NCBI GenBank assembly: GCA_027292975.1
Contig: JAPUGG010000188.1
Coordinates: forward strand, 1-35,480
DNA length: 35,480 bases
Direction of reading: 5' to 3'
Origin: Alphaproteobacteria bacterium
GTDB taxonomy: Bacteria > Pseudomonadota > Alphaproteobacteria > SMXQ01
The notes beneath the pieces were generated by a model. The model was not told where the DNA came from, made no database searches, and saw nothing but the letters and a program-made list of their open reading frames with translations. Below, piece by piece: positions 369 through 21,633 of this stretch (the first letter of the stretch is position 1; the number at the start of each line of letters is the position of its first letter). The position numbers and the translations under genes were made by a program.

Positions 369-1628
369 CTAATTGGCCGCCCTATCCAATTCCTTGAGGA
401 TGGGGCTGTATTTGGTGGTGTTGCCGCTACGGGCCCCCTTGGCCATATTCCCGGCCCGGCCACGCAATTTTGCTTTTTCGATGGGCAGGTCGATCCGATT
501 TACGGACAGATCACGGAAGACATTCATCGGGTCCTCGCCCGCTTCGACGGCTTGGGCGGCCTCCTCGAGCATCTTCCGATAGAGCACGACGCCCTTGTCC
601 GAGCGCCCGAGATGCTCATGGGTCCGGTCGGTGATGGCCCCCTGGCTGATCCAGGCGACGATATCCTGCCCGCTGTTGTTGTCGAGCACGTCCCATTGCG
701 GCAGGCCGGACGGGTCGAGCTGCGGCACCGGCGCGGTATAGTACGGGATCTCGTCGAGAGCCTGCGGTTTAATAGGCACGCCCGAAACCTCGGTATAGCA
801 GCGGTACCACCAATACGCCGTGGTCTCATCGTCCATGGGAACGCGGATCTGGAAGGCCGGGGCACCGGCGCTGCCGCTCTTGAGGATGTTGGGAAACACC
901 ACGGGATGGCCGATTGTCCAGTCCTCTTCTTGCTCTGTTCCGCCCTCAAGGACGCGCCGCTTGACGATGCCGTGCTCAAAGACGTCGAAGCCGACCTTCT
1001 GGTGAGACTGGCGGTCCCGCTTCTTCTCGGGCGTGCCCAGTTTGTCCATGACGTAGTTGCGCATATTTTGATGCAGCCATTCGACGTGTACCGGGTCGAG
1101 CGAGTTCTCCATGATCTGCACCCAGTTGCAGGGCACCACCGCGAAGCAAACCTCGCGCATGACGCCGTCCATCACGAACAGGTCCCAGGGTGGCAGCACC
1201 GGTACCGGGTCGGGCCCCAGGTAGCCGAAGAACATGCCGCCGAGTTCGGCAACCTTATAGGCCGGCGTGACGATCTTGTCCTTGAAGCGGCCCTCGGGGT
1301 TTTCCGTATCCTCGTAGGGCTGTTCGATGCATTGGCCGTTCTCGTCGAAAAGCCAGCCATGATAGGCACAGCGCAAGCCGCACTCGGTGGGGATGCCGTA
1401 GACCAGGGACATATTGCGGTGGGGACAGCGCGCTGTGATCAACCCGACGGTGCCCGAGAGGTCGCGGTAAAGCACCAGTTCCTCGCCGAGAATTTTGACC
1501 GGCAGCGTATCGCGGTCCTTCATCTGTGAAATCGCGGCGATGGGGTGCCAATAGCGCCGCAGCATCTCACCCATGGGCGTGCCGGCCCCGACTTGGGTCA
1601 GGCGCTGGTTCTGTTCCACTGTAAGCAT
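369..1628 (-). CDS. Rieske [2Fe-2S] aromatic ring-hydroxylating oxygenase alpha subunit (phthalate 4,5-dioxygenase-like)
   Basis: 419 aa ORF; Rieske motif CPHR-(x)n-CAYHGW and downstream mononuclear-iron-type region (ENSLDPVHVEWLH). Confidence 0.9.
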   Translation of the reverse strand: MLTVEQNQRLTQVGAGTPMGEMLRRYWHPIAAISQMKDRDTLPVKILGEELVLYRDLSGTVGLITARCPHRNMSLVYGIPTECGLRCAYHGWLFDENGQCIEQPYEDTENPEGRFKDKIVTPAYKVAELGGMFFGYLGPDPVPVLPPWDLFVMDGVMREVCFAVVPCNWVQIMENSLDPVHVEWLHQNMRNYVMDKLGTPEKKRDRQSHQKVGFDVFEHGIVKRRVLEGGTEQEEDWTIGHPVVFPNILKSGSAGAPAFQIRVPMDDETTAYWWYRCYTEVSGVPIKPQALDEIPYYTAPVPQLDPSGLPQWDVLDNNSGQDIVAWISQGAITDRTHEHLGRSDKGVVLYRKMLEEAAQAVEAGEDPMNVFRDLSVNRIDLPIEKAKLRGRAGNMAKGARSGNTTKYSPILKELDRAAN

Positions 1629-1868
1629 GGCATCCTTCCCTACCGGCCGCTGTTTGCACCTGTTGAATTCCGCAACATGATCTTAAACCTCTCGCTCGGG
1701 CCCGGTGCACCGGCACGGTTTTTCTCTCCACGGTATTAATGCTACGCCCAGTTTCCAACCCATGCCATCAAATTTGGCGGTGGGCCCTGCCCAAGCGGCC
1801 GGGATCGTGCCGAAAACCCGGCCAAAATAAAGGGCCCGACGGATCGACCATCGGGCCCGCTGACAGAT

Positions 1869-1945
1869 TGGTCGGAGCGGCGGGATTTGAACCCACGACC
1901 CCTTCACCCCCAGTGAAGTGCGCTACCAGGCTGCGCTACGCTCCG
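1869..1945 (-). tRNA. tRNA-Pro(GGG), CCA encoded
   Basis: Reverse complement CGGAGCGTAGCGCAGCCTGGTAGCGCACTTCACTGGGGGTGAAGGGGTCGTGGGTTCAAATCCCGCCGCTCCGACCA; 7-bp acceptor stem CGGAGCG/CGCTCCG, GGTTCAAATCC T-arm, anticodon stem CTTCA/TGAAG with loop CTGGGGG. Confidence 0.96.
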
Positions 1946-1962
1946 TCATGTGACCGTCCTTA

Positions 1963-2016
1963 CTAGAGCACTATCCGGCCAAATGGAAACCATTTGATGG
2001 GCGTAAATCGGTTTTC
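1963..2016 (+). repeat. Dispersed CTAGAGCAYTATCCGGCCaAAT... repeat, copy A
   Basis: ctagagcactatccggccaaatggaaaccatttgatgggcgtaaatcggtttt; shares its core with copies near 18755, 19019 and 28812. Confidence 0.75.
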
Positions 2017-2045
2017 AGGGCAGCCGCGGCGTGAAGGGCGAGGAC

Positions 2046-2462
2046 TCAGCCCGCCAACAGCTTCTTGAGTTCGGTCAGTTCGTCGATGATGGCGCGGATT
2101 TCCCGGCGCTGGGCATCGTTCAGCGAACCCGCGCCGCCGCCATCGGCGGCAGCGTCTGCCTCGGCCCGGCGGGCGTTTCCCTCCCGCAGCAATTTCTGGA
2201 CACCCTTGATGGTGTAGCCTTCCTGATAGAGAAGGGTCCGGATATTGTGCAGCAGAACGACATCTTCCGGACGGTAGTAACGGCGCCCACCACCGCGTTT
2301 CAGCGGTTTGACCTGGGCAAACTTGGATTCCCAGAATCTCAGGACATGTTGGGGAATTTCCAGTTCTTCGGCGACTTCGCTGATCGTCCGGAAGGCCTCG
2401 GCGGACTTGCCGGTCCGCCGCCCCGCGACCGAGTTCGGAGCCGATTGAGCCAGTTGCGCCAT
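2046..2462 (-). CDS. MerR family transcriptional regulator
   Basis: 138 aa; [48 protein letters not shown] is a MerR winged-helix domain; downstream of ihfA as is usual in alphaproteobacteria. Confidence 0.92.
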
Positions 2463-2870
2463 TTAGAAGTGCCCCCCGTCTCCGCCACGCCCGGGGCCGG
2501 GAAAAAAAGGACTGGCCGTGGGTTCGGCAACGGTCCCTGGCATGCCCTCACCGGAATCGTCTTCCGCCGCCTTTGGCGAGGCAGAGTCGACCCGGCTTTT
2601 CAGGACGTGGGAGGCCCGAAAGACGAGGACCTTGCGCGGCAGAATCGGTACTTCTTCGCCGGTTTTTGGATTGCGGCCGACGCGCTGGCCTTTCTGGCGT
2701 ACCGAAAAACTGCCGAACGATGAGATCTTGACGGTCTCACCGCGTATCAACGCGTCACTGATCTCTAGAAGCACGGCTTCGACCAATTCGCCCGATTCGT
2801 TGCGCGAAAGCCCCACCTCCTGATAGACCGCTTCACCCAATTGGGCACGGGTTACGGTATTACCAGCCAT
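2463..2870 (-). CDS. ihfA: Integration host factor subunit alpha
   Basis: [92 protein letters not shown] family. Start chosen at 2870 rather than the longest-ORF start 2894. Confidence 0.93.
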
Positions 2871-10760: not shown

Positions 10761-10808
10761 CATGGGGCCGTGGGGGCATGGCGGCATGGGGCCATGGGGG
10801 CATGGCGG
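10761..10808. repeat. Two tandem copies of a 24-bp unit (catggggccRtgggggcatggcgg)
   Basis: 10761-10784 catggggccgtgggggcatggcgg and 10785-10808 catggggccatgggggcatggcgg, one mismatch. Confidence 0.9.
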
Positions 10809-18703: not shown

Positions 18704-18754
18704 GACATGTCCCCTGGCGCGACTCGTAATTCGTCCCGGTGAAAGAGAAATACA

Positions 18755-19022
18755 CTAGAGCATTATCCGGCCAAATTGAACCATTTGACCGGGATGATTT
18801 TACGTCGTGGCTAGGCGCGTGTCGCACGGCGATGCGGGGCATCGGCGAAGATTCGCAACGACGCCTTGGGGCAAAAGCACCCGGCCTGCGGTGGGGCTCA
18901 TCGGCTCCCAGGGTGCGTTGCGACCCTCGCCCGATACACCGCATCGCGCTTCGGTCCGCGTCTGCCCTGGGAACCGATGAGCACCCATCAAATTAATTCA
19001 ATTAGGCCGGATAGTGCTCTAG
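18755..19022. mobile_element. MITE-like non-autonomous element (~268 bp) with inverted CTAGAGCAYTATCCGGCC termini
   Basis: Left end ctagagcattatccggccaaattgaaccatttgacc (18755-) and right end ...tcaaattaattcaattaggccggatagtgctctag (-19022) are inverted copies; two further inverted-repeat pairs inside; no credible CDS. Confidence 0.65.
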
Positions 19023-19057
19023 AGCATTATCCGGCCTAATTGAACCATTCGACTGGA
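19019..19057 (+). repeat. Dispersed CTAGAGCAYTATCCGGCC repeat, copy D, abutting the MITE-like element
   Basis: ctagagcattatccggcctaattgaaccattcgactgga; forms a near-perfect palindrome with the MITE right end (18998-19043, one mismatched pair). Confidence 0.75.
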
Positions 19058-19064
19058 TGACGCA

Positions 19065-19159
19065 TCACCGTTCGCGCCAATTCAAAGGTCCTGCCTTCTC
19101 GAACAGCCACGGGTACTGGCCGACCATGCGTCGGACCTGGCGGATGCGCCACGCCAGCA
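19065..19159 (-). pseudogene. Duplicated 3' fragment of the DUF6867-like gene at 21301-21633
   Basis: 19067-19159 matches 21303-21395 with two substitutions; encodes ...LLAWRIRQVRRMVGQYPWLFEKAGPLNWRER-stop. Confidence 0.9.
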
Positions 19160-19540
19160 AAGGCCGGTTTGACCGGGTGATCGCGATTACAATGAGGCCG
19201 TCCGCTTGGGGCCGGGTCAGGCCGGCATCTCCACGACCGGGGGAATGCATTCACCGGCAACGGTCAGTACGACCGCGCTATAGGTGATTACGATGCGGTT
19301 ATTCGCCTTAGGCCCAACAACGCCTTGGAATTTTACCACCGGGCCCGGGCCAAATTTTATTCGGTTCATCTCGCTGGCGCCCTCTCCGACCTTATGATGG
19401 CGGCAGGGATTGGGCTGAAAGGCTATTATGCAGCGTTCCGACGTTTTCTCAGACAGCTTCTTCAGGGACTAAGCGAACAAGCCAAGCTTGGCGCGGGCGA
19501 ATTTACGGTCTGGAGAGGATTATCTGGCCGCCTCTTTTAG
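19160..19540 (+). pseudogene. Frameshifted fragment of a TPR-repeat protein gene
   Basis: KGRFDRVIA(frameshift)YNEAVRLGPGQA then DRGNAFTGNGQYDRAIGDYDAVIRLRPNNALEFYHRARAKFYSVHLAGALSDLMMAAG; TPR consensus, no proper N-terminus. Confidence 0.75.
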
Positions 19541-21061
19541 TGCTTCCTTCACATGGTTCGACAAAATAAACGTCTTCTGGTCCAGACGTCTCAGGCCGCT
19601 TGAATAGGAGTACGGATCACGAGGATCCGTACTCCGACGAATTTTCAGCTGTTTCAAACTTGCTGGGACCAGTTCCTTGGCGATTCTTTCGTTCAACCGC
19701 CGTTTGGACGGGGAAGTCCTTGAAAACGCCGCCGCCCGCATCACGCTGTAGGACAAAATACTTGCCCCTGGCTTGGATCCGCCGTAGCTGAAGAGATAAT
19801 TGTTGTCACCCGAATAGATGTTCGCCTCTGTAATTCCCACATACATGGTCCGCGCATCATCCGAACGATAACGCTTAAGGGTTTGGGAAAACACGCTTAA
19901 ATAGGGCCCGGCTAAATATTGGCCCGGCTCCTTGTCGATTTTGCTGGCGATCTCTCGTGCGCGGTAGCGCGACAGCGGGTCCTTGGTTTCGACAGCCTTC
20001 AGCAACTCCCTTACATAGCGCGCCTTCCCCCAGCCGGCGAAATCAATGTCTCGGCCCTTGAGCCGCATGAGAGTGCGTTGAATTTGCCGCTGGCGCGCGA
20101 TGCGACCCGGCGCGCTGAATTTCCAGGTCTCTTTCAAACGCCTGATGTTCACGGGAACGCCGGTGATTTTCGAATAGATTTTGGCGGCTTCTTCCAGAAG
20201 CCAGGGATTGATTGGGGGCAGGGGAATCAGGATGAGTTGCAAGCCGGTCTCGTTTTTCTGCAACAGAGGTATGGCTTCGAATGTCGCCGCGGGCTTGCCC
20301 AAAATTTTCGCGGCCTTATCGATGTGTTCGCGATCCTCGGCATTCTCGAAGACGATCCGCGCGCTTTCCCTGGCCGCTGCGGTATCTTTGGTATTGGTGA
20401 AAAAATCGATATGGGCGTCGTAGTTGTCGGGAGAGGTGGTGACAACATTCTTCAATACGGCGAGCGCTTTCGGTTTCTTGCCTTGCCGCAATAACCGGCG
20501 CGCATAGTTGTGTGCCTCCGGCCCCCACAAGCCCATAGAGACATTTCCGGCCGACCTGGCCTTATGGTAGCGCTGTCTGTCAACGAAGGCCGTTATGACG
20601 GCGAACTTATCGCTGATCCCCTGGATATTTCCCGAGGGAACAACATAAACCCAATACTGAACTGATGTGGGGAGCCAATAGGTAAAGAAAAACGCCTCGC
20701 CCCCTCTATGGTGAGTTTTAGCAAAGACCTCCCTCGGGGAAATTTTATGAAATTCCCCCCCTGTATTTTTCATTTTGTCGTTCAATAATCCCAGCATGTT
20801 TTTGAATACGTTTTCGCAGCGTACTCGGTCGCATCCGAGGTTCATCACTATCATCCGCACGGATTGATCTTTCGTAGCGTAGTCGAACCGCTGTTCGTCA
20901 TTTTTTGCGGATTTTTTCTCTAGGCTCAGCTGCTTCCCGCCAACCTTGAACGCCGGGCCGAAATAGTCCGGCAAGAACGGGGGCATTTGAATTTCACCAA
21001 CTGAAGCCTGTGTGAGCATTACCGATGCGAAGATTGCAAATATGTAGATCATCTTTTTCAT
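19520..21061 (-). CDS. Secreted protein with helical/TPR-like middle and C-terminal archaemetzincin-like domain lacking the zinc site (candidate pseudo-metzincin)
   Basis: 513 aa; signal peptide MKKMIYIFAIFASVMLTQASVGE; C-terminal IPLPPINPWLLEEAAKIYSKITGVPVNI...VGITEANIYSGDNNYLFSYGG...GASILSYSVM...RIAKELVPASLKQLKIRRSTDPRDPYSYSSGLRRLDQK follows the archaemetzincin pattern without HExxHxxGxxHC. Confidence 0.55.
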   Translation of the reverse strand: MKKMIYIFAIFASVMLTQASVGEIQMPPFLPDYFGPAFKVGGKQLSLEKKSAKNDEQRFDYATKDQSVRMIVMNLGCDRVRCENVFKNMLGLLNDKMKNTGGEFHKISPREVFAKTHHRGGEAFFFTYWLPTSVQYWVYVVPSGNIQGISDKFAVITAFVDRQRYHKARSAGNVSMGLWGPEAHNYARRLLRQGKKPKALAVLKNVVTTSPDNYDAHIDFFTNTKDTAAARESARIVFENAEDREHIDKAAKILGKPAATFEAIPLLQKNETGLQLILIPLPPINPWLLEEAAKIYSKITGVPVNIRRLKETWKFSAPGRIARQRQIQRTLMRLKGRDIDFAGWGKARYVRELLKAVETKDPLSRYRAREIASKIDKEPGQYLAGPYLSVFSQTLKRYRSDDARTMYVGITEANIYSGDNNYLFSYGGSKPGASILSYSVMRAAAFSRTSPSKRRLNERIAKELVPASLKQLKIRRSTDPRDPYSYSSGLRRLDQKTFILSNHVKEALKEAAR

Positions 21062-21300: not shown

Positions 21301-21633
21301 CTACCGTTCGCGCCAATTCAAAGGTCCTGCCTTTTCGAACAGCCACGGGTACTGGCCGACCATGCGGCGGACCTGGCGGATGCGCCACGCCAGCAGACCG
21401 ATCAAGGCGATGACCGCGAAATCCCGCAGAAAATAGCCCAAGGACGTGAGCGGCCCGCCGAACAGTCCCCAACTGAGGAAACGGTCGAATAACGCCAGCA
21501 ACCAACCGTAACCGACCACCTGCCAATAGGGCCGCCAGGTGGCGGCGATCGCCGTCCCCGTAAGCCAAGCGGCGGCACCGAAGATGCAGACGGTCAGCCC
21601 CAGGAAAACCGGCCAATCGGTCATTGCCGTCAC
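21301..21633 (-). CDS. DUF6867-like small membrane protein linked to liv operon
   Basis: 110 aa; AWLTGTAIAATWRPYWQVVGYGWLLALFDRFLSWGLFGGPLTSLGYFLRDFAVIALIGLLAWRIRQVRRMVGQYPWLFEKAGPLNWRER; overlaps livF. Confidence 0.75.
   Translation of the reverse strand: MTAMTDWPVFLGLTVCIFGAAAWLTGTAIAATWRPYWQVVGYGWLLALFDRFLSWGLFGGPLTSLGYFLRDFAVIALIGLLAWRIRQVRRMVGQYPWLFEKAGPLNWRER

Follow-up and report, generated by a model that had tools for sequence, protein, structure and literature searches.

A rare family of probably exported archaemetzincin homologues in which the zinc site is replaced by a conserved motif

Background

Pseudopeptidases have been studied mostly in animals. BepA, an M48 peptidase with TPR that resides in the Gram-negative periplasm, retains its zinc. 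Among archaemetzincins (M54), the nearest described non-proteolytic protein is CarG of Myxococcus xanthus (NF033824), which has the archaemetzincin fold and exerts its function through binding of CarD (PMC8156234). The zinc ligands are retained in CarG, which binds two zinc atoms, its catalytic Glu being changed to Gln in the motif HQxxHxxExxHC (PMC8156234), and it provides a precedent for a dead archaemetzincin that works by protein binding (PMC8156234; PMC3427221). M54 is nowhere mentioned in a 2024 review covering inactive homologues of metallopeptidases.

The protein described here comes from a marine bacterium. Its gene lies on the minus strand at 19520..21061 of the window (the whole 35,480-nt stretch of DNA that was analysed), where the first-pass annotation had placed it, and encodes 513 aa plus a stop, with full-length homologues at loci L006, L064, L007 and L037. 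It and its relatives share with canonical archaemetzincins (M54, AmzA; 2x7m, 3zvs, 3lmc) the fold, the order of elements and the landmarks GQY, GIT...NIY, SILSY and D-x-K, but differ in that HExxHxxGxxHCx4CxMx17CxxC is entirely replaced and in having an insertion (residues 311-375) and additional N-terminal domains. The fold is likewise common to CarG, whose model NF033824 weakly matches four of the six family members (best 6.7e-7); the window protein does not match it at E 0.01, the best member reaches 29 bits vs a curated 250, and the CarG-type HQxxHxxExxHC zinc-binding motif is missing from the window protein in the alignment. CarG is a small partner of a transcription factor, whereas this family has no ligands and carries a leader peptide and extra domains. 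BepA, compared by description, resembles it in joining a metallopeptidase-fold domain with TPR in the periplasm, but belongs to another peptidase family, keeps zinc and has the reversed domain order. No archaemetzincin described as exported, zinc-free and multidomain turned up in the literature and libraries searched. The initial proposal of an exported, zinc-site-replaced archaemetzincin of an undescribed kind is supported as to architecture and the loss of the zinc ligands, but not as to non-proteolytic archaemetzincins in general, which CarG and NF033824 already represent.

Homology to archaemetzincins

The pseudo-archaemetzincin domain spans residues 273-513 (19523..20245, minus strand), as placed by NCBIfam NF033823, hhalign, AlphaFold2 (AF2) and Foldseek. 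The archaemetzincin model NF033823 matches all six members (best E 6.2e-10), the window protein at E 3.4e-5 and 23.9 bits against a curated cut-off of 145, and all six scores fall far under that cut-off; the window protein is an M54 homologue that lies outside curated NF033823 membership. A profile built from three family members, without any M54 sequence, retrieves from other genomes proteins of ~190 aa with intact HExxHxxGxxHC (E 1.6e-8, 4.6e-8 and 4.4e-7). Aligned by hhalign to canonical M54 loci selected with Pfam, the family domain gives E 3.3e-10; a repeat gave E 3.8e-9 and a score of 64.0, where the maximum from 100 column shuffles was 20.9 and the reversed profile scored 13.6. Residues 273-513 are modelled by AF2 with pLDDT 92.4 when family and M54 rows are in the alignment, and all five Foldseek matches in PDB with E <0.001 are archaemetzincins (3lmc, 2x7m, 3zvs, 4axq; TMt 0.73-0.80). 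Because of those M54 rows, the confident model confirms that the sequence suits the fold but does not count as separate evidence of homology.

A chance alignment might be argued from the lack of any Pfam PF07998 match to the window protein itself and from its identity of just 14-23% to canonical M54. Against this, the NCBIfam match, the profile searches, the hhalign controls, the tree, the bridging protein L039 (below) and the model all concur, making coincidence extremely improbable. The C-terminal archaemetzincin domain proposed at first pass is thus borne out by NCBIfam, profile searches, hhalign, phylogeny and a confident model whose significant structural matches (with M54 rows in its alignment) are archaemetzincins only. 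The proposed gap-free alignment of PASLK...DQK to HExxH...DxK was also reproduced, beyond chance, by both profile-profile and multiple alignment, with KELV at the position of the zinc helix. PDB sequence searches were uninformative. Strict M54 searches returned nothing above cut-off either in the whole source genome or in a 399-genome Pseudomonadota sample; families such as this one are overlooked by current Pfam models.

The replaced zinc site

The former active-site helix and zinc/Met-turn loop correspond in the gap-free alignment to K462-L500 (19562..19678, minus strand; KELVPASLKQLKIRRSTDPRDPYSYSSGLRRLDQKTFIL). In this alignment the first zinc-site His has become P466, the catalytic Glu A467, the second His K470, the motif Gly K473 and the third His R476; S477, D482, S501 and V504 stand in for the four zinc-finger Cys, and Y484 for the Met-turn Met (Tyr in 6/6 members). 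The window protein is accordingly missing the HExxHxxGxxH catalytic zinc site, the Cys4 finger and the Met-turn Met, and the alignment confirms the original observation that all His ligands, the catalytic Glu and the motif Cys are substituted. Not one His or Cys is invariant across the six members, and in four of the five relatives the second Cys alone survives as a relic (DPTCPY, DPKCPY, DPSCPY).

What has taken the place of the zinc site, the motif KELVPASLK...R..DP..PYSYS, is near-identical in all six members, and nowhere else in the protein is conservation as high. Invariant positions among the five full-length members number 87/513 (17%) overall and 30/50 (60%) within residues 451-500, and none of 20000 permutations was as extreme as the best 50-residue conservation window. 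One homologue pair (L037/L038) is under purifying selection, with dN/dS of 0.10/0.86, about 0.12. From the conservation of residues 451-500 and this ratio it follows that the remodelled site is being kept by selection, not decaying. A frameshift concealing HExxH was rejected, as the replacement motif is common to six separate loci.

Loss of every catalytic residue, a patchy distribution and a low-GC insertion (see below) might be expected of a functionless protease gene in decay. That reading is strongly contradicted, and we consider it very unlikely: several lineages carry an intact ORF, one pair has a dN/dS of about 0.12, and conservation peaks at the former active site, the reverse of what decay should produce. 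That this site is better conserved across five relatives than any other part suggests that a protease has been converted in evolution to another use, probably binding.

Domain architecture and export

By inspection, residues ~1-22 (20996..21061, minus strand) form a probable Sec signal peptide, as first described, with KK, a hydrophobic core and a QAS/AxA-type site; the leader, MKKMIYIFAIFASVMLTQASVGE, is typical, and the four other full-length members likewise open with a hydrophobic leader whose last residues, by inspection, are AxA-like. On the strength of this N-terminus, the window protein is probably exported.

A first AF2 model, based on three family rows, is reasonably confident over residues ~23-258 and unreliable over the C-terminal M54 domain, so its Foldseek result was used for the N-terminal half only. 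There, an alpha/beta domain at residues ~25-145 (20627..20989, minus strand; pLDDT mostly 66-87) is tentatively DcrB/Mog1-PsbP-like from the model and Foldseek (6e8a DcrB: probability 1.00/0.99, TMt 0.43, E 4e-3). It is followed by a TPR-like helical region at residues ~146-258 (20288..20626, minus strand), whose helices (pLDDT mostly 68-91) resemble TPR domains of FKBP52 and OGT in Foldseek. Pfam finds only TPR matches in the window protein, all sub-threshold, including TPR_14 at E 0.0075 and 17.3 bits vs a cut-off of 23.5. Both assignments remain tentative because all Foldseek E-values for this half exceed 0.001. The TPR-like helices had been foreseen, and the sub-threshold Pfam and Foldseek TPR matches support them; the tentative DcrB-like domain that precedes them had not.

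Within the M54 fold, alignment and a gap in hhalign mark a family-specific insertion at residues ~311-375 (19937..20131, minus strand), missing from canonical M54. It holds the RQRQIQRTLM segment, so equating RQIQRTLMRL with the M54 RxQY stretch was an error; hhalign and alignment place the real equivalent at E378-P-G-Q-Y-L-A384 (19910..19930, minus strand), with GQY at residues 380-382.

Distribution and order of loss

A search of 385 class genomes with the window protein (P0001) brought up a single full-length relative, L002/L007 (38% identity), in Rhodospirillaceae SI074_bin97. The resulting two-sequence profile found L006 (50% identity) in the MAG 'Deltaproteobacteria' CSMAG_1136, and a three-sequence profile run on 345 genomes of that phylum found L037, L038 (a fragment) and L039; L064 came from a later search. 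Two further candidates from the class-genome search, L003 and L004, were dropped as marginal and short, L003 lying within an unrelated gene. The family is rare. The 10 other genomes from the order to which the window belongs do not have it, and within a 399-genome sample of the phylum it occurs in the window's genome only. Viral, plasmid and phage collections gave no relatives, nor did a single-sequence scan of genome contigs; PHROGs had no match for the family, and PADLOC a single marginal match, to a relative.

L039 (genome G847, 1474-2760, minus strand) is a TPR + M54 protein that can be described as a metal-finger-only archaemetzincin. It exceeds the Pfam M54 cut-off (42.5 vs 24.4 bits), has no HExxH and keeps all four Cys (RCTFPTC...CSWC). 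In the tree, where the root is arbitrary, it is sister to the family with support 99/98, or 99/99 without three long branches. Like the family, it has a TPR-like region ahead of a dead M54 domain, with I-x-R replacing the region of the third His; unlike the family, it keeps the four Cys, has no KELVPASLK motif, is shorter, and begins with a TM segment or leader. This suggests an order of loss in which the catalytic site went first and the zinc finger later. The series can be traced from the canonical enzyme through L039, with its zinc finger kept, and the members with one relic Cys to the two alphaproteobacterial members with no Cys.

The searches also brought up other M54 variants. The 324-aa archaemetzincin at L089:1066-2040 is probably both exported and active, given its intact HExxHxxGxxHC and apparent leader peptide (CCSIARAG). 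Archaemetzincins at L065, L066, L067, L070, L071 and other loci have HELGHTFNLRHC, the Gly of HExxHxxG being changed to Asn, Ser, Asp or Lys.

Genomic context

On one side of the gene is a branched-chain amino-acid transport cluster that includes a DUF6867 gene, and on the other a gene for a periplasmic binding protein. With a GC content of 0.52 and a GC3 of 0.63, the pseudo-archaemetzincin gene stands below eleven other genes of the window, which have GC 0.61-0.66 and GC3 0.78-0.84. It is flanked by two copies of a 93-bp direct repeat, 98% identical and spaced 2236 bp apart: copy 1 (21303..21395) is the 3' end of the DUF6867 gene (PF21741) of the transport cluster, and copy 2 (19067..19159), on the gene's far side, is a detached duplicate of that 3' end. 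The repeats are attachment-site-like, and there is no integrase between them. This arrangement suggests that a ~2.2-kb segment was inserted beside the transport cluster; from the low GC and the flanking repeat, the gene was probably acquired horizontally in the source genome. Elsewhere in the family, a DDE-type transposase lies near L006 and an IS91-type one (L096) on L064's contig, and no conserved gene neighbourhood was found among members.

A REP-like palindromic element, AGAGCATTATCCGGCC, occurs at 18749-19056 and also at 1965, 19514 and 28812, with six matches in the window (up to 3 mismatches) vs 0.33 expected; one copy spans the 3' end of the pseudo-archaemetzincin gene. Elsewhere in the window, a short tandem array at 10761-10808 consists of two 24-bp copies of CATGGGGCCATGGGGGCATGGCGG.

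Possible function

We favour, as fairly probable, the reading that the protein is an exported multidomain pseudopeptidase serving in the periplasm as a module for binding or scaffolding. Nothing remains in its archaemetzincin domain of the catalytic zinc site with its Glu, of the Met-turn Met or of the Cys4 zinc finger; the protein would bind no zinc and cleave nothing. The remodelled helix and loop (KELVPASLK...R..DP..PYSYS) would form a conserved core or a contact surface, and the TPR-like part may offer a second surface for protein contacts. Such a module would be broadly analogous to CarG, a dead archaemetzincin that acts through partner binding, and that precedent supports a binding role; the gene itself probably arrived horizontally, as the ~2.2-kb insertion. 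Counting against this reading, neighbourhoods differ between members, and the conserved motif might equally signal a catalytic site of a new type.

Extreme conservation of a motif, with invariant polar and charged residues exactly at the former zinc site, is also what one might expect of an enzyme repurposed around a new zinc-independent catalytic site using S468, K470, R476, D479, Y484 or Y486. No known catalytic motif was recognised there, however, and the conserved P, A, L, Y and S fit a structural or binding core equally well, which leaves this reading an outside chance. Another proposal, that the protein inhibits or regulates active archaemetzincins through domain mimicry, would cast it in a role known for pseudopeptidases, which can regulate active relatives (PMC11266112), and canonical M54 is co-resident with the family or its sister in some genomes (G762, G847). 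Yet no M54 match was found in the window's genome (92% complete), so a role in regulating an M54 enzyme of the host itself was rejected for the source genome; profile search of G970 and G1163 yielded the pseudo form only; and the canonical M54 of G762 (L056) is probably cytosolic, having no obvious leader. We regard inhibition by mimicry as improbable.

There is a slim prospect that the family has reinvented the site, as a zinc-independent catalytic or ligand-sensing one (S468/K470/R476/D479/Y484-Y486), in an exported protein spreading horizontally among aquatic bacteria. If true, this would be a new kind of exported enzyme or sensor on a metzincin scaffold. For the family as a whole, conservation has come to peak at the dead active site, and has done so in a series that can be traced, which makes these pseudo-archaemetzincins a good test case for the conversion of a catalytic cleft to another use.
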